Below are positions 7,142 through 14,086 of a DNA stretch of 23,585 bases, piece by piece. The DNA is from a virus, in IMG/VR virus record IMGVR_UViG_3300011116_000775, positions 1-23,585 of that record. One strand, given 5' to 3'. The notes under the pieces were generated by a model that did no database searches, was not told where the DNA came from, and worked only from the letters and a program-made list of their open reading frames with translations. The position numbers were made by a program, and so were the translations under genes. The first letter of the stretch is position 1. The number at the start of each line of letters is the position of its first letter.

Positions 7142-7406
7142 TACCCCTTGCTCGTATGGCGGCGGCGCAGTCTTTTCCATGCTTGTACCACTCAGGGCCA
7201 CCATTAAATATATTCAATGCTGGATGCACCCCAAGCCCCTCACACACCTTCGCACACGCCTCACGCTCGGCAGCAGCAACGAGGGCAGCGAAGCGTTCAA
7301 GAACATCGGGGGTGGCAAAGACTTGCACATCGTCCCAGTGCTCTGGGCTTCTAAATGGTTTGCACCCCGCCTCCCGCGCCATGCGGATGATGTCTTCTCT
7401 ATCCAT
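7110..7406 (-). CDS. Conserved hypothetical phage protein (98 aa)
   Basis: The protein begins MDREDIIRMAREAG and contains LERFAALVAAAEREACAKVC and DCAAAIRARG. This helical pattern occurs in many small proteins of Burkholderiales phages with no assigned function. The ATG at 7406 lies inside the last codons of the upstream gene, and its Shine-Dalgarno (GGGAG) is formed by that gene's conserved LREKN codons. The segment between residues 17 and 40 varies in such proteins. Function unknown. Confidence 0.7.
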   Translation of the reverse strand: MDREDIIRMAREAGCKPFRSPEHWDDVQVFATPDVLERFAALVAAAEREACAKVCEGLGVHPALNIFNGGPEWYKHGKDCAAAIRARGNEKRERDHRE

Positions 7407-7647
7407 GATTCTTCTCCCGCAGCTTGGCTTCAAGGACTTTGCATAGCCAGTTGACTGATTTATCACCTTTAACCATCTCGCACGACAGTATGTCAATCTC
7501 CCCATCCGTCAGCCCAACCCATTGCTTCAGTGCCAATCGGCGCAATTCGACGGCTGATTCCCTGCCCGTGCTATTGCTTATTCGTCCTTGCACAAACTCA
7601 GCGTCCAGCGCATCAGCCAGCCGCAGGGCTTTGGGTTGTGTGCTCAT
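7399..7647 (-). CDS. WVGLT-module paralogue 1 (82 aa)
   Basis: This is the shortest of five related proteins in this operon. Its C-terminal half carries the shared module KQWVGLTDGEIDIL followed by VLEAKLREKNHG. The N-terminal half (MSTQPKALRLADALDAEF) differs from the other copies. It starts with ATGA overlap to the upstream gene and ends so that its last codons supply the Shine-Dalgarno and start for the next gene. The family is widespread in Betaproteobacterial phages; no function is known to me. Confidence 0.75.
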   Translation of the reverse strand: MSTQPKALRLADALDAEFVQGRISNSTGRESAVELRRLALKQWVGLTDGEIDILSCEMVKGDKSVNWLCKVLEAKLREKNHG

Positions 7648-8039
7648 GTGTTCTTCTCCTTTAGCTTGGCTTCGATGTATCGGGCAAACCTCACACCGTC
7701 CTCATTCAAGAAAAGTGCTTCCATGTCCTCCTCCGTCAGCCCAACCCATTCACGCTTTGGTGGTGCGGTGTAGAGTGGTATGTCATCTGGATTGGGGCCG
7801 ATCAGGTTGCCTTCTTCATCGAACTTTGATGAGCGATGCCACCAAAGTTCCCCCTTGCCCCCATTGGTAATCCACGCCACCGGCTCTTGCTCTGTCTCCA
7901 GTGCTTGGCGTAGGGCGGCGATGGAGTCAGTTGTATTGCGCTTTGCCTGCTCCAGCGCAGACTCAGGCCAAACCCACTTTCCGTAATTTGCCCAGCCCTC
8001 CAGCGTGTGCAGCGCCATCTGCATCGCTTCTCTGCTCAT
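7644..8039 (-). CDS. WVGLT-module paralogue 2 (131 aa)
   Basis: Three blocks are visible: an N-terminal helix MSREAMQMALHTLEGW shared with the paralogue ending at 8708; a middle block EPVAWITN...DDIPLYTAPP; and the C-terminal module REWVGLTEEDMEALF...EAKLKEKNT. The DNA for the first ten codons is nearly identical to that at 8969-8998. Upstream and downstream joins are both ATGA. The last codons read AAGGAGAAAAACACATGA, serving as protein end, Shine-Dalgarno and next start at once. Function unknown. Confidence 0.8.
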   Translation of the reverse strand: MSREAMQMALHTLEGWANYGKWVWPESALEQAKRNTTDSIAALRQALETEQEPVAWITNGGKGELWWHRSSKFDEEGNLIGPNPDDIPLYTAPPKREWVGLTEEDMEALFLNEDGVRFARYIEAKLKEKNT

Positions 8040-8488
8040 GTGTTTTTCTCCTTTAGCTTGGATTCAAGTGCTTTGGTAATCTTTACCCAATAATTTCGCT
8101 CTGCAAACTGCCCGCTAATTACTTCCCCAATCTCCTGATCGGTCAGCCCAACCCATTCTCGCTTTGGAATTACTTTTTCGTGGTATGTTTGATCGTTCAT
8201 TACTGCCATGGCAAGTGACTGGCAGGTTTGGCATGGTGCGGTGTATAGAGGTGTCCATCGCTCAGGGTAACGGCCAATATCTGCGGGTCTGTGCGTGATG
8301 ACATTACCTTCAATAAAATTGTGCATCCACGCCACCGGCTCTTGCTGCGCTAATGCTGCATTCCATCCTCGCTGATAAGCCTGTGCAATCTCAATTTGTT
8401 TGTCGTGTTCAGTTTTCACGACACGTTCTTCCCATGCGTGTTCCGCAAGTTGAATTTTTGCCTCGTAATCATCGTATGAATCGCTCAT
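8036..8488 (-). CDS. WVGLT-module paralogue 3 (150 aa)
   Basis: The largest family member here. An acidic helical N-terminus (MSDSYDDYEAKIQLAEHAW) is followed by a helix QAYQRGWNAAL, the block EPVAWMHN...WTPLYTAPCQTCQ, and the shared C-terminal module KREWVGLTDQEIGEVI...ALESKLKEKNT. The CxxC in the middle is absent from its paralogues. It joins both neighbours by ATGA overlaps. The same three-block layout recurs in many phage hypothetical proteins; the role is unknown. Confidence 0.8.
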   Translation of the reverse strand: MSDSYDDYEAKIQLAEHAWEERVVKTEHDKQIEIAQAYQRGWNAALAQQEPVAWMHNFIEGNVITHRPADIGRYPERWTPLYTAPCQTCQSLAMAVMNDQTYHEKVIPKREWVGLTDQEIGEVISGQFAERNYWVKITKALESKLKEKNT

Positions 8489-8715
8489 TGCTCCCTCGCT
8501 TTCAGCATCGCGTCTGCCATTTTGTAGTAACGCCTTGCACTATCTTCCATCGTTTCCCCGTTAGCTCCAGCAACTTCAGCAGCCCAGTCGCCCTGCATCG
8601 CCTTGGCTGCAAGGTAGTCGCGCAGAGACATGCCTGGCTGGATTAGGTACGAATGTGCAACGGGAAATGCTCCCCCACCATCTGTTGGTGTCTTTGCGTT
8701 TTTGTTTTCAGCCAT
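8485..8715 (-). CDS. LRDYxAA-domain small phage protein (76 aa)
   Basis: The protein MAENKNAKTPTDGGGAFPVA... contains GMSLRDYLAAKAMQGDW and ends YYKMADAMLKAREQ. This LRDYFAA...AYxxADAMLKAR pattern defines a very common small phage family of unknown function; two more copies of the fold appear here, at 11044-11229 and as the C-terminal half of the alpha-CTD protein at 10054-10422. The ATG at 8715 uses a GGGAG that lies within the final codons of the upstream WVGLT paralogue. Confidence 0.75.
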   Translation of the reverse strand: MAENKNAKTPTDGGGAFPVAHSYLIQPGMSLRDYLAAKAMQGDWAAEVAGANGETMEDSARRYYKMADAMLKAREQ

Positions 8716-8998
8716 GATTTTTCTCCCGCAGCTTGGCTTCCAGTGCTCTTGAAACATCAAGCCAACCTCCACCTTCAAGCACATCGTCAATTGCATCTGA
8801 CACTTCTTCGTCAGTCAGTCCAACCCATTCATGTTTACTTTTTGCCTTTTCATCGACACGTTCTTGCGATGTGTCGTCGGCATCGACAAGTGCTTGGCGC
8901 AGGACGGCGATGACTCCTTCTAGTTTTTGGTCGCAATACACGTCATCCGCAATCTCGTTCAACATACCAAGCGCCATTTGCATAGCTTCTCTGCTCAT
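8708..8998 (-). CDS. WVGLT-module paralogue 4 (96 aa)
   Basis: N-terminus MSREAMQMALGMLNEIADDV matches paralogue 2; the C-terminus has HEWVGLTDEEVSDAI...ALEAKLREKNHG. The middle EPVAW...LYTAPP block seen in the longer copies is missing, so this is the two-block form. It starts with ATGA overlap to the XRE regulator. Its final codons overlap the next start by 8 bases and supply its ribosome site. Function unknown. Confidence 0.8.
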   Translation of the reverse strand: MSREAMQMALGMLNEIADDVYCDQKLEGVIAVLRQALVDADDTSQERVDEKAKSKHEWVGLTDEEVSDAIDDVLEGGGWLDVSRALEAKLREKNHG

Positions 8999-9309
8999 GC
9001 CCTATCCCCCGCATCTTGTTTCCATTCGTCAAACTTAGCCGTGAGCCGAGCGGATAGCTTTGCACTAGGTTCCTGCTTACCTCTTTCAATCCTGCTGAGA
9101 TTGCCCATGCTGGTCCCGACTTCCTTTGAAAGCTCTCTAATGGTCCGACCAGAAGCTAGCCTTGCCTGTTTCCAATGGGTGGACTGTTCTGTGAGTTCTT
9201 TGATTAACTCAGCGGCCTCGCGGATCAAAGCTTTCTCAGGGGCGCAGTAGTCAGGTAGTCCTGTTGCGTACCCTACAAGTCGGTTGTAAACCCTTTCATA
9301 TTTGTTCAT
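8995..9309 (-). CDS. XRE/Cro-family HTH DNA-binding protein
   Basis: The 104-aa protein has an N-terminal helical part (1-45) and a classic Cro/CI helix-turn-helix at about 48-90: WKQARLASGRTIRELSKEVG, then TSMGNLSRIERGKQEPS. The motif LSRIERGKxxPS is diagnostic of XRE-family repressors. It sits inside the early operon, not next to the control region at 14.05 kb, and may act on that palindrome; this is inference. It starts with ATGA overlap to the gene upstream, and its stop overlaps paralogue 4 in the same way. Confidence 0.85.
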   Translation of the reverse strand: MNKYERVYNRLVGYATGLPDYCAPEKALIREAAELIKELTEQSTHWKQARLASGRTIRELSKEVGTSMGNLSRIERGKQEPSAKLSARLTAKFDEWKQDAGDRA

Positions 9310-9578
9310 GAGTTCCTATCCCGCAAAATGGTTTCAATCTTTTGGATCACTTCCACATGGGTGAACTTGGATAGCTCCTCGTAGTCACTGTCGTTTAAAC
9401 CGCGCCACTCAAACGGTGTGACAAACAACGGTATGTTGTAAGCTTGGTAGCGGTTTCTTTTCTTCTCCGCGCTGTGAATGATCCTTGTCTGTTCGTCAAA
9501 CTCTAGGTCAGTCGCCCATGCGATGGGTTCATCCAAAAAGGATTTATCTTTTTGGTACAAGTTGTGATCCCCGGACAT
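9306..9578 (-). CDS. Divergent WVGLT-module paralogue 5 (90 aa)
   Basis: A diverged member of the family: EPIAWATD...YNIPLFVTPFEWRGLNDSDYEEL...IQKIETILRDRNS lines up block by block with EPVAWITN...DIPLYTAPP and EWVGLTDEE...ALEAKLREKN of its neighbours. The ATG at 9578 has GGAG about 6 bases upstream, in the 9-bp gap after the zinc-ribbon gene. GTTTAAAC at 9393-9400 lies in it. Function unknown. Confidence 0.75.
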   Translation of the reverse strand: MSGDHNLYQKDKSFLDEPIAWATDLEFDEQTRIIHSAEKKRNRYQAYNIPLFVTPFEWRGLNDSDYEELSKFTHVEVIQKIETILRDRNS

Positions 9579-9587
9579 ATCAACTCC

Positions 9588-9764
9588 TTATTCTTTCACC
9601 TTCGGAGATCTCTCCTTGGTGGTAAATCGTTCTTCACAATGAACGCATTCTCTGCGCCGCTCAACATAAAAAACTTTTTGGTTAGGCTCCCAATAGTTTC
9701 TGGTTTCAATCACCTTGGTTTTATAAGCACGGCCATCAGGCTGAACACAAAATGGGCACTTCAT
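9588..9764 (-). CDS. NrdR-like zinc-ribbon protein (58 aa)
   Basis: Protein starts MKCPFCVQPDGRAYKTKVIE and has ERRRECVHCEERFTTKE near the end. CPxC at 3-6, then RRRECxxC at 37-43 and ERFTT match the N-terminal zinc ribbon of the NrdR repressor almost motif for motif (MxCPxC ... RRRxCxxCxxRFTT), but the ATP-cone domain that senses dATP in NrdR is absent. The start overlaps the upstream stop as ATGA, and it is followed by a good GGAG for the next gene. It could be a DNA- or RNA-binding accessory factor; regulation of ribonucleotide reductase genes is only a guess. Confidence 0.8.
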   Translation of the reverse strand: MKCPFCVQPDGRAYKTKVIETRNYWEPNQKVFYVERRRECVHCEERFTTKERSPKVKE

Positions 9765-10057
9765 GCTTTGAAGGCGTTGTATTCAGCAACCAGCCACCTC
9801 TGCCAGCCGTTGGTCCACTCCCTCGGCCATAACATCATCTCTTCAAGCGTTGCGTGACGTGCAATCAACTCAGAGGCACTCAAGCGTTTGGTCTTATCTT
9901 CTTTGTACTCGAACAACTTCGTCATGCCGTTATAAGTTCTCACGAAGGCTCCCGGCTGGACCCATACTGGTTCTGAGCGATGCGGGTAGTAAGGCATACC
10001 GTTTAAACAGAACACAGGTTCCGGGCCGCTGGGCGCTTTGGGTTCAGAGATTTTCAT
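9761..10057 (-). CDS. Hypothetical early protein (98 aa)
   Basis: The protein MKISEPKAPSGPEPVFCLNG... has proline-rich start, a likely beta-rich centre (PVWVQPGAFVRTYNGMTKLF) and a Trp-rich helical end (WPREWTNGWQRWLVAEYNAF). No known family recognised. It joins both neighbours by ATGA overlaps. GTTTAAAC at 10001-10008 lies within it. Confidence 0.65.
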   Translation of the reverse strand: MKISEPKAPSGPEPVFCLNGMPYYPHRSEPVWVQPGAFVRTYNGMTKLFEYKEDKTKRLSASELIARHATLEEMMLWPREWTNGWQRWLVAEYNAFKA

Positions 10058-10422
10058 TTCATTCTCGCTTTCAACATTTCATCGGCAACTAAAAAGGCAA
10101 TCTCAGCAAAAGCCACTTCAGGTTTTTGATTGGGAACCTGCCCCCACTTACCAGCAAAGATGCCGGTGATCACCGCAGCAGCGAAGTGATCCCGAAGATT
10201 GGGGTAGTCCGGTATCTTAGGGATCGGCACCTTGGGTAAGGCAAGACCTTTGCTTGCAAGGATCTCTTTGACTTCGTTGATGGCTCGCCGTCCGATGCCA
10301 TCGGTTTTCAACAACTGAATTTCGGTGTACTGAAGTACGTCCTTGATCGTATAGATCCCGGCGTAATGTAAGGCGTTTAGTGTGCGCTGCGTCAGCAGCC
10401 CACAATCAAGTTGTTCATCCAT
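10054..10422 (-). CDS. RNA polymerase alpha C-terminal-domain-like protein fused to LRDxFAA domain
   Basis: Residues 9-62 (LLTQRTLNALHYAGIYTIKD, QYTEIQLLKTDGIGRRAINE, KEILASKGL) are a close match to the bacterial RNA polymerase alpha-CTD. Aligned by eye to E. coli, R265 is R13, N268 is N16, G296 is G44, K298 is R46 and E302 is E50; S299 is A47. These residues contact UP-element DNA, so DNA binding is plausible. After a proline-rich linker (63-74) comes the phage LRDHFAA...AEIAFLVADEMLKAR domain (77-120). There is no alpha N-terminal domain, so it cannot assemble like host alpha. It could bind UP elements, sigma or activators as a competitor or bridge; this is inference. AAGGA precedes the ATG at 10422. 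Confidence 0.8.
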   Translation of the reverse strand: MDEQLDCGLLTQRTLNALHYAGIYTIKDVLQYTEIQLLKTDGIGRRAINEVKEILASKGLALPKVPIPKIPDYPNLRDHFAAAVITGIFAGKWGQVPNQKPEVAFAEIAFLVADEMLKARMK

Positions 10423-10431
10423 GACACATCC

Positions 10432-10911
10432 TTAAAATAACGATTCTTGGTTTTGCGGGAAGTAAGTATTCATCACGGCGTGGTAATCGAAGAATGTCTC
10501 AAAGCATTCGTAGATGCCTGTTAGTTCATCGCTCGAGGCTTCGACTTCCCCGTTGTAGGTATAGACTTTCTTCGGCACCTTGACTTTGCCTTGAGCAAAC
10601 TTAATCCCTAGCTCAGTGGGGCGCCACAAGCCTGAGTGCTTTGCCTTGATATCACTGCTGGCGCGGCGCTCAACCAGACCCCACCACCGAAGGGTCGGCA
10701 ACTGGTTGGAACGTAAGACTCGGGTATGCCCTGAGTTAGGCACGTCGACCCATCCTTCGTCGTTTCTCTTGGCACCGCACAGCCAGATCAAACTGTAGGC
10801 CATGGTCGAGTTGATAGACCGGGCATAGATCTTTCCCCATCGGTTACAGACGGGGCAATAGCCCCCTTCATGCTCGATGATCTCTCGCCATCTGATCTTC
10901 TCTTCGATCAT
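10432..10911 (-). CDS. Zinc-finger-containing phage protein (159 aa)
   Basis: The N-terminal third has HEGGYCPVCNRWGKIYARSI, a CPVC half of a possible zinc site with a further C45 in LIWLCGAKR. The centre (LRSNQLPTLRWWGLVERR, HSGLWRPTELGIKFA) looks like a winged-helix fold with a typical WGL turn, and the end is acidic and aromatic. The layout fits a small DNA-binding protein, but I cannot name a family. The ATG at 10911 overlaps the stop of the 58-aa gene before it. Nine bases separate its stop from the alpha-CTD gene. Confidence 0.7.
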   Translation of the reverse strand: MIEEKIRWREIIEHEGGYCPVCNRWGKIYARSINSTMAYSLIWLCGAKRNDEGWVDVPNSGHTRVLRSNQLPTLRWWGLVERRASSDIKAKHSGLWRPTELGIKFAQGKVKVPKKVYTYNGEVEASSDELTGIYECFETFFDYHAVMNTYFPQNQESLF

Positions 10912-11084
10912 TCTGCCACCCCATTGAAGCGAAGTGCGATACGCGCTCTATCCAACTCGGCGATACGCTTGCGCTCTTTAAGAACTTTGGGGTCCCGCCA
11001 AGGGTAGGGCTGCTTTAACAGGCGCCAATGTTTCTTGAATGTCTCAAGGACATTCGTCGATTCGCTTGTTGTCTTGATTTCCAC
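10908..11084 (-). CDS. Small basic protein with GTG start (58 aa)
   Basis: The reading frame starts at GTG 11084 with GGAG 7 bases upstream and ends with a TGA overlapping the next ATG. It translates to MEIKTTSESTNVLETFKKHW, then a very basic segment (DPKVLKERKRIAELDRARIA). It overlaps the upstream gene by 41 bases. Its helical charged character suggests a small nucleic-acid or protein-binding factor; no family recognised. The ribosome site and the exact stop/start coupling argue that it is real. Confidence 0.6.
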   Translation of the reverse strand: MEIKTTSESTNVLETFKKHWRLLKQPYPWRDPKVLKERKRIAELDRARIALRFNGVAE

Positions 11085-11229
11085 AACGTAACTCCATCAT
11101 TTGGTTTGCAATCTCATAGGCATCTTTGGCGATGTTTAAACCACCGATGCCGGGTTGCTTGCCGTGTGCGCTCAAGAGTCCCATAAGCGCGAAGGCTGCG
11201 AACGTGTCGCGCAGTTCATCGTTTGTCAT
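11044..11229 (-). CDS. LRDxFAA-domain small phage protein (61 aa)
   Basis: MTNDELRDTFAAFALMGLLS and AKDAYEIANQMMELR place it in the same small phage family as the protein at 8485-8715 and the C-terminal half of the alpha-CTD fusion. It has only this domain plus a short polar tail. GTTTAAAC at 11134-11141 lies inside. Its start overlaps the upstream gene end by 14 bases. Function unknown. Confidence 0.75.
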   Translation of the reverse strand: MTNDELRDTFAAFALMGLLSAHGKQPGIGGLNIAKDAYEIANQMMELRCGNQDNKRIDECP

Positions 11230-12326: not shown

Positions 12327-12475
12327 TTAGACCTCTCATAGTGTGTGATAAGAAACAGAATGACATCGGCAATCGAAGTCCTGAACCCGACTTTCTTTGA
12401 GATCTCTAACTGCATCTCGCGTAGACGGGCCAAAACCTCTGGCCGCAGTGACACATTTTTTTGTTGTGTACTCAT
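12323..12475 (-). CDS. Ribbon-helix-helix-like protein (50 aa)
   Basis: Translation gives MSTQQKNVSLRPEVLARLRE, then MQLEISKKVGFRTSIADVIL and a short helix. A short beta strand (NVSLRP), helix, turn with GFR-TS, and helix is the layout of Arc/MetJ/CopG-type RHH DNA-binding proteins; 50 aa is a normal RHH length. ATGA overlaps at both ends fix the start and stop. As the third gene from the promoter it is a good candidate for the regulator of the palindrome at 14052-14067, but that is inference. Confidence 0.7.
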   Translation of the reverse strand: MSTQQKNVSLRPEVLARLREMQLEISKKVGFRTSIADVILFLITHYERSK

Positions 12476-13179
12476 TTCTTCAGTTCGCTAGAACGGTCGG
12501 TAAACCGTTTGGTTAAAAGCCCCATTCGTTCGGGGTCCATCTTCTCCAGCTTGGTCCAAGTCTCCTTGTTGATACTGTAAAAACTTCTCAGTGATTTGAT
12601 GGTTTTACAGTCCTCGAGGAAGGCTTCGGCCAAGGTGCAGATCTGGTCAGCTAATGCATTCGGTACTTCTTTGACAATCACAAAAGGGGTCGGCTCATCT
12701 CCTTGTGGTTCTTCTGGTGGAGGTAGCGCTTGTTTAAACGCAGCAGCCGGTGGGTTCTTCTCTTCTTTCTTGTCATCGACTTCGTTGGGAACCTCGGCGT
12801 CATCACCGGTGGCTAACTGAAGCAAACGCAGAAGCGCGTACTTGTTAGCTCCGGTTAATGCTTTGTAGATCCCTTTGTCTCCTACGCCCTTTGAATTTCG
12901 ATCATTCCCTGATCCTGCACAGGTGAATGATATCGAGTCGCCTGACTCGTGAAACACCGTGTAGTTAATGATCACATGCGTGTTGCCGTTGTCATCATGT
13001 TCTACGGTTTGAACCGAAGGCATGATCATGAGACCTTCTTTCAACATGGCGGGACGCACCGTGGTGATTACGTCCGCTTCGGTTACATAGCTATACTTTT
13101 GAAAATCGTTATAGCCTTTCTTCTGCACATACTTGATGCTATTCGCTACGTTGATCAGCGCTGCTAAGACTTGCTTCAT
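12472..13179 (-). CDS. ERF-family single-strand DNA annealing recombinase
   Basis: The 235-aa protein has the ERF pattern: an N-terminal helix (VLAALINVANSIKYVQKKG), FQKYSYVTEADVITTVRPAM, KEGLMIMPSV, a beta-rich core ending in SISFTCAG, then KGVGDKGIYKALTGANKYAL with LLQLATGDDAE, where ERF proteins carry their conserved loop. A proline-rich linker (PPPEEPQGDEP) joins a C-terminal helical domain. ERF proteins anneal complementary strands and work with a 5'-3' exonuclease; the next gene upstream is just such a nuclease. The start at 13179 has GGAG five bases upstream and is preferred to an earlier ATG at 13227. Confidence 0.85.
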   Translation of the reverse strand: MKQVLAALINVANSIKYVQKKGYNDFQKYSYVTEADVITTVRPAMLKEGLMIMPSVQTVEHDDNGNTHVIINYTVFHESGDSISFTCAGSGNDRNSKGVGDKGIYKALTGANKYALLRLLQLATGDDAEVPNEVDDKKEEKNPPAAAFKQALPPPEEPQGDEPTPFVIVKEVPNALADQICTLAEAFLEDCKTIKSLRSFYSINKETWTKLEKMDPERMGLLTKRFTDRSSELKK

Positions 13180-14035
13180 ATGTTCTCCATTGATTACAAA
13201 AATCCCTAACGTCACAAAAATTTGCACATCGAGTGCGCTCTTCAGGTCGATGCTCGACGTAGTGTCCCTTGCCTAGTGACTGAGCATGGGCATCGGCTTC
13301 GGCTTTGTCTGCGTACAACTTAATCGCTTTAACTCGTTTGTCGTTCTTTATTGCGTACACCGGAGGTTTAGCCCACATATCCTCTTTGCTGCACGGTGCG
13401 AGGTCATCGCCGAAAGCTGAGGAGGTGAAGGCTTCTTGGTGTAGGGCAACCCGTTCCCTTATAAACTGTTCTGTTGTTTCGTTATCCCACATCGGTACAT
13501 CAATCGTAACGATTGGTGCTTGAGGGTAGCCCTCTCGTTTAGCGTCATGCATGGACCAGTCCCTGATGATCGCTACGATTTGTATACTTCTGACAGGTGT
13601 TTTCTTAACGGTCTCCACCAGCCACTTGTAGATGTTGAGTTGCTGTTCCCACTCAATCTTCTCGTTCATCACCGACCATGCTTTGGTGACCTTGTAGTCT
13701 TGGATGGTGCGTGTTCCATCGGCATGGCATATCTGAGAGTCGATGGCGCCGGAAAAGATCCAGCCGTTTATCTCGGTGAAGATTCTCTCTTCGGTCAGAT
13801 GTTTTTCATCGCCGCCTTGCTCGAGGATGTGATGCACCGCAGTGCCAAACAAAGACCAGACCAGCGAGGTTGCATCAACCTTGATCTCGGCGTCATGCAT
13901 TTGCCTGAGCGCCACAATGCGCGGCGAGTTGATGGCCTGCGTCACACTGATGTGTGACTTGCCTTTGTCGTAGGTAGGACGGTGTAACGCGTTGATAACC
14001 GCTTGAGGTAATCCGTAGTTGTTTGTAATCTGCAT
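13139..14035 (-). CDS. PD-(D/E)XK exonuclease (RecB/Cas4-like)
   Basis: The 298-aa protein shows the motifs of RecB-type nucleases in order: GTAVHHILE (H69), GAID (D99), IQDYK (D113 and K115), and QLNIY (QxxxY, 132-136). Near the C-terminus CANFCDVRDFC gives three cysteines, with a fourth possible partner in APCSKED, so an iron-sulphur cluster as in Cas4/AddB is possible. It would resect DNA ends for the ERF protein, whose gene start it overlaps by 41 bases. It is first in the operon; the ATG at 14035 has CAGGAA upstream and lies about 15 bases after the predicted transcription start. Confidence 0.85.
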   Translation of the reverse strand: MQITNNYGLPQAVINALHRPTYDKGKSHISVTQAINSPRIVALRQMHDAEIKVDATSLVWSLFGTAVHHILEQGGDEKHLTEERIFTEINGWIFSGAIDSQICHADGTRTIQDYKVTKAWSVMNEKIEWEQQLNIYKWLVETVKKTPVRSIQIVAIIRDWSMHDAKREGYPQAPIVTIDVPMWDNETTEQFIRERVALHQEAFTSSAFGDDLAPCSKEDMWAKPPVYAIKNDKRVKAIKLYADKAEADAHAQSLGKGHYVEHRPEERTRCANFCDVRDFCNQWRTYEASLSSADQRSE

Positions 14036-14051
14036 ACGCTTTCCTGTTAAT

Positions 14052-14067
14052 GGGTACAATCGTACCC
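14052..14067. promoter_or_regulatory. Palindromic operator over divergent -10 elements
   Basis: GGGTACAATCGTACCC has 6-bp perfect arms around AATC. It covers the -10 of the leftward promoter, so a protein bound here would block it. Candidate binders in the window are the XRE, RHH and HTH proteins. A related half (ATGGGTACAAC) recurs at 14967-14977 in the leader of the primase-helicase. Confidence 0.6.
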
Positions 14068-14086
14068 GTTCTGATGGGTTTGTCAA
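14059..14086 (-). promoter_or_regulatory. Leftward early promoter (TTGACA-N16-TACGAT)
   Basis: On the minus strand a perfect -35 TTGACA (14081-14086) is 16 bases from TACGAT (14059-14064). Transcription would start near 14052 and read the exonuclease-ERF operon. The -10 lies inside the 16-bp palindrome. A plus-strand TACAAT at 14055-14060 within the same palindrome could be the -10 of a weaker divergent promoter for the nuclease gene, but no good -35 is seen for it. Confidence 0.7.

Follow-up and report, generated by a model that had tools for sequence, protein, structure and literature searches.

A viral fusion of an RNA polymerase alpha-CTD to a recurrent phage hairpin module as a candidate promoter adaptor

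The window, by which is meant the whole stretch of DNA analysed here, is a complete IMG/VR virus record of 23,585 bases. Within a minus-strand array of small genes, an open reading frame (ORF) at 10054..10422, with its start at 10422 and its stop at 10054, encodes a protein of 122 aa in which the C-terminal domain of the RNA polymerase alpha subunit (alpha-CTD) is fused to a phage module termed LRD. The sequence-only reading had these coordinates right, and the strand is minus. The start is fixed by an in-frame stop just 3 codons upstream of the ATG, a Shine-Dalgarno (SD) sequence AAGGA stands 6 nt upstream of that ATG (probable ribosome-binding site AAGGAT at 10428..10433, minus), and the fusion-gene stop and the start of the downstream gene form an ATGA-type overlap. 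The SD spacing, the constrained start, and the overlap together make the ORF a credible gene. Upstream in the same operon lies a gene of the family phrog_2693 (10432..10911, minus), while the overlapping downstream gene (9761..10057, minus) encodes a 98-aa protein for which Pfam and PHROG profile searches returned no family match. An ERF annealing protein (12472-13227, minus) and a PD-(D/E)XK exonuclease (13139-14086, minus) belong to the same array. A 58-aa protein at 9588-9764 (minus) consists of the NrdR zinc-ribbon N-terminal domain only (PF22811, E 4.3e-10), the rest of NrdR being absent.

Residues 10-62 of the fusion (10237..10395, minus) constitute the alpha-CTD, the HhH DNA-binding domain of RNA polymerase alpha. 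Pfam PF03118 (RNA_pol_A_CTD) matches residues 10-56 over profile positions 20-66 of 67 with 41.2 bits against a cut-off of 23.8 (E 1.3e-10), and RNA polymerase alpha subunits account for all 48 PDB sequence matches at E<=0.1. The AlphaFold model adopts the alpha-CTD fold with a pLDDT of about 90 across the N-terminal half, and its top Foldseek matches are all RpoA, some of them alpha-CTD bound to UP-element or A/T-rich DNA. The earlier identification of this half as a true alpha-CTD is thus borne out by Pfam, PDB matches, model fold, and Foldseek alike. A chance match or a generic HhH domain was ruled out by the PF03118 score, the all-RpoA PDB matches, and the identity to RpoA. The protein also lacks the alpha-NTD, which serves dimerisation and core assembly in RpoA, as had been claimed: at 122 aa, it scores 44.3 bits on the RpoA equivalog profile, far under the cut-off of 302.

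The DNA-contact surface of the domain appears mostly, though not fully, kept. In E. coli numbering, R265 (R13 of the fusion), N268, K291, G296, and E302 are identical and position 298 is Arg, in agreement with the earlier listing of R265, N268, G296, E302, and a basic residue at 298 as retained. Three positions that the earlier reading had not listed differ, namely C269 (Ala), S299 (Ala), and N294 (Gly). In the closed complex at rrnB P1, the minor groove is entered by R265 and N294 while K291 and K298 bridge to phosphates (PMC7822876), and DNA binding needs R265 and N268 (PMC11434276). Since the minor-groove residue N294 is replaced by Gly, DNA binding by the fusion may be weaker than that of E. 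coli alpha, and the C269A and S299A substitutions may weaken it too. The suggestion that the protein occupies UP elements therefore stands only in part: an alpha-CTD without an NTD and with a partly intact DNA surface makes it possible, but the Gly at 294 may leave such binding weaker.

The alpha-CTD is followed by a linker (PKVPIPKIPDYPN..) at 10201..10236 (minus; residues 63-74, pLDDT about 57) and, as the C-terminal half, by the LRD module at 10060..10200 (minus; residues 75-121), a predicted two-helix hairpin delimited by PHROG, hidden Markov model (HMM), and structural model. Both the LRDxFAA helix and the ADxMLKxR helix are present, and these residues match phrog_20565 (E 3.9e-8) as well as phrogs 2201 and 37111, phrog 30599 being a further match to LRD. 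An LRD HMM built in this analysis finds the module three times in the window: at fusion residues 75-120 (57 bits), at 8488-8796 (66.6 bits), and at 11047-11229 (47 bits). The latter two matches fall in stand-alone LRD proteins encoded at 8485..8715 (minus; 76 aa from the probable start, the ORF being open to 8796) and 11044..11229 (minus; 61 aa), the start at 8715 being placed by the MAENKNAK/MSENKNAK beginning. Together, the HMM and PHROG matches uphold the view that the C-terminal half is a common phage domain also found alone at 8485 and 11044.

LRD mostly occurs as a stand-alone phage protein of about 60-90 aa. Pseudomonas phage D3 orf38 and Burkholderia phage BcepMigl gp34 (phrog_2201/phrog_20565) carry the same hairpin module as the fusion, but such stand-alone proteins have no alpha-CTD and usually show a short FP-containing N-terminal segment in its place. 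Likewise, in six IMG/VR contigs (L001-L006), an LRD 85-89% identical to the fusion tail is not joined to alpha-CTD, and no alpha-CTD was found elsewhere in those records. One contig (L172) contains one long ORF with LRD and without alpha-CTD; this ORF and the many stand-alone copies rule out LRD as an exclusive alpha-CTD partner. Searched by fold on its own, the LRD hairpin gave no informative match.

The DNA around these genes has further features of its own. At the 3′ end of LRD (92 sequences; 8485-8526 in the window), synonymous codon use is biased toward AAA for Lys (72/87), GCG for Ala (55/76), AGG for Arg (66/91), and GCA for Ala (66/92). Given these biased codons and the AAAGCGAGGGAG ahead of the overlapping ATG, the LRD tail seems to hold the ribosome-binding site of the next gene. 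Across 7144-9030 of the window, patches of about 30-340 bp, many of them 80-100% identical, match scattered sites in many viral contigs. A second module, (R/H)EWVGLTDEE(I/V)...AKLKEKN, recurs as the C-terminus of at least five small ORFs close together on the minus strand between 7399 and 9578 (7399-7647, 7644-8039, 8036-8488, 8708-8998, and 9306-9578).

A survey of the fusion in other phages, which the sequence-only reading had proposed, was carried out by scanning IMG/VR with a degenerate alpha-CTD pattern that covers positions 296-304, and is biased for them, but not position 265. The scan yielded 65 loci with an alpha-CTD relative, forming about 39 clusters with the window included. The ORFs are short and no full RpoA occurs among them, which rules out RpoA contamination of the viral contigs. 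In INPHARED, most matches were annotated RpoA or bacterial records or were indistinguishable from these, the only clear cultured-phage case being Ruegeria phage vB_RpoS-V16. The alpha-CTD and LRD pairing recurs in at least three topologies: alpha-CTD followed by LRD (the window and L032), LRD followed by alpha-CTD (L017/L019 and the L015 family, which includes L025, L039, and L180), and a split LRD whose two helices flank an inserted alpha-CTD (L011/L012). For L015, profile comparison of the N-terminal half with LRD is weak alone (24.8%) and reaches 92% with L017 added, and full-length tblastn matches of the family (E 4e-14 to 5e-18) support the assignment; dN/dS in this family is about 0.3-0.55. 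LRD was found in 3/34 alpha-CTD clusters and in 0/742 other clusters at the alpha-CTD loci (p 8e-5), although the gene filter behind this value missed lone LRD genes, and counting two such families brings p to an estimated 8e-4. As the loci were picked for alpha-CTD and the contigs are perhaps related, this enrichment is supporting rather than decisive. A functional link between alpha-CTD and LRD is best supported by the recurrence in several topologies, which the sequence-only reading could not reveal.

Several other partners of the phage alpha-CTD are themselves transcription modules. Sigma70_r4 is joined to alpha-CTD in L009 (E 1.1e-8) and L031 (E 8.4e-12), and an XRE helix-turn-helix in L073 (E 7.8e-12). 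In the two former contigs, sigma-70 region 4 and alpha-CTD share a single ORF (L009:4467-5171 and L031:4587-5159) resembling the sigma4/alpha-CTD promoter-binding unit. One ORF (L036:4620-5327) holds two alpha-CTDs, and one contig (L050) has two separate alpha-CTD ORFs. Gp23 of Ruegeria phage vB_RpoS-V16 (L156:2923-3789) is a 288-aa protein with alpha-CTD at its N-terminus; it is named pyrophosphatase in one record copy, so an alpha-CTD/MazG-like fusion in a cultured phage is possible.

With 47-70% identity, the alpha-CTDs joined to LRD look as if captured from betaproteobacterial RpoA. Among the RpoA compared, that of Burkholderiales is closest to the domains of the window (55%), L017 (59%), L015 (68%), and L032 (47%), and L011 is 68-70% identical to it over a stretch of about 80 residues that takes in some of the RpoA linker. 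A low-resolution tree puts L011 among Burkholderiales RpoA, does not unite the LRD-joined forms in one group, and does not group the alpha-CTDs of the window and L032, whose shared domain order may therefore not be inherited. L032 (also L187) lies in a Paenalcaligenes hominis DSM 26613 prophage and encodes a full-length homologue of the fusion with the same order of alpha-CTD, linker, and LRD, identical at 41% of aligned positions but with Ser for N268 and a longer LRD loop; its neighbours, named by eye, are SSB, RdgC-like, and integrase genes. Across 399 genomes of the same taxonomic order, the full fusion occurs only in P. hominis among the matches listed, the others covering the alpha-CTD part only, in RpoA-length frames. 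A single alpha-CTD (rpoA) is found in 58 of 60 sampled Pseudomonadota genomes; one genome has none at threshold, and P. hominis has two.

Among 46 non-redundant phage alpha-CTDs, R265 is present in every one, a basic residue at 298 in 45, and Asn294 in 40, while acids at 259 and 261 occur in 32 and 29, respectively. The rpoA control for surface conservation held 4 non-redundant sequences at 80% identity and is descriptive only. In the fusion, D259, L260, and E261 are replaced by Cys, Gly, and Leu, changes that the earlier reading had likewise not listed. Residues 259 and 261 of alpha are taken here to be the sigma-region-4 contact. The acid at 261 is missing from all five LRD-joined representatives compared with 12 of 41 others (p 0.0045), a post hoc value in which two of the five representatives may share ancestry. 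With D259 and E261 lost from this patch, the earlier idea that the fusion takes sigma contacts is disfavoured. The conserved R265 and the lost acids favour contact with DNA over contact with sigma, and hence a trans-acting adaptor on promoter-upstream DNA is the preferred reading.

This preference is tentative and carries somewhat less than even confidence. The fusion would act from the phage early region as an adaptor in trans on promoter-upstream DNA, with LRD as its partner module. A captured betaproteobacterial-type RpoA alpha-CTD would serve as a free DNA-binding module on a phage helical hairpin, docking upstream of promoters on A/T-rich DNA with a narrow minor groove and possibly also on host activators that normally touch alpha-CTD. 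The LRD hairpin would either oligomerise the fusion or recruit another phage protein; the lone LRD proteins encoded in this operon may be such partners. Transcription at the bound promoters would then be altered in trans while the fusion stays outside the polymerase core. The DNA binding, the promoter target, and the role of LRD are inferred from domain identity, the recurrent LRD pairing, the transcription-module partners (Sigma70_r4 and XRE), and the kept R265. The adaptor reading is weakened by the N294G, C269A, and S299A substitutions, by the LRD without a fold match, by the failure of the window and L032 to group, and by L172.

An absent alpha-NTD together with a conserved R265 would suit a decoy, a free alpha-CTD that, by sitting on UP elements or on activators that contact alpha, weakens strong host promoters, such as those of rRNA or activator-dependent genes. 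Phages are known to attack alpha (PMC7552054): T4 Alt/ModA do so by ADP-ribosylation and LUZ19 Rac by cutting, and a decoy would reach the same end by competing. However, it leaves the repeated joining to LRD unexplained and would work with a DNA-contact set made incomplete by N294G, and is considered unlikely. Much the same doubt attaches to the proposal that the domain has become a general HhH DNA-binding module for phage recombination or replication, its transcription link gone. The ERF and exonuclease genes lie about 2-3 kb from the fusion gene, L032 adjoins the SSB, RdgC-like, and integrase genes named by eye, the sigma patch is lost, and weak similarity to HHH_5 and RAD51D_N exists, but the nearest relatives are RpoA rather than repair HhH proteins, and several of the other domains joined to phage alpha-CTDs are sigma-region-4 or XRE.

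The two halves might also be little linked, LRD being a widely shuffled gene end that carries the ribosome-binding site of the next gene and the alpha-CTD having been caught by short-homology recombination. Sub-gene DNA mosaicism at 7.1-9.0 kb, the synonymous bias at the LRD end with AAA-GCG-AGG-GAG ahead of the overlapping ATG, and the ERF recombinase in the same genome would fit such an accident. It is nevertheless regarded as quite improbable, given that LRD also stands N-terminal to alpha-CTD, or encloses it without loss of either helix. The varied LRD topologies and the dN/dS of the L015 family argue that both halves are maintained as protein.

That viruses have built alpha-CTD/LRD proteins several times suggests, without proving, that these proteins act on host transcription. 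More broadly, and with greater reserve than for the fusion itself, the host alpha-CTD may have been taken up by phages again and again as a portable module for promoter-upstream DNA and joined to LRD, sigma-region-4-like, XRE, and other domains. The resulting trans adaptors would stay outside the polymerase and, alongside ADP-ribosylation and cleavage, provide another way of interfering at alpha. If promoter-upstream DNA is bound in trans, the promoter-binding tail of the polymerase would be a detachable part reused by viruses, and small plug-in modules like LRD would be placed in a functional setting for the first time. The about 39 clusters with varied partners (sigma region 4, XRE, LRD, and tandem alpha-CTD) open this question to cultured systems, namely the Paenalcaligenes hominis prophage and Ruegeria phage vB_RpoS-V16 with its other alpha-CTD protein.

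No study of a phage-encoded free alpha-CTD was found in the open-access literature. Individual phage proteins with an alpha-CTD already have entries in BFVD/UniProt under the name 'RNA polymerase, alpha subunit, C-terminal', with no function recorded, among them those of an uncultured Caudovirales phage, Rhodococcus phage Finch, and Mycobacterium phage Mithril; like the fusion, these are short with a single alpha-CTD, and LRD is absent from their names, by which alone they were compared. Neither the joining to LRD nor its recurrence appears to have been described in that literature. Compared with RpoA, the fusion shares the alpha-CTD fold (PF03118) and its main DNA residues, but it is without the alpha-NTD and the RpoA linker, has altered residues at 269, 294, and 299, has lost the acids at 259 and 261, and bears a C-terminal LRD. 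T4 Alt/ModA, which ADP-ribosylate host alpha, and LUZ19 Rac, which cuts it (PMC7552054), exemplify phage interference with alpha function of the kind proposed here. Whereas those proteins modify or cut the alpha of the host, the phage encoding the fusion would supply an alpha-CTD of its own.
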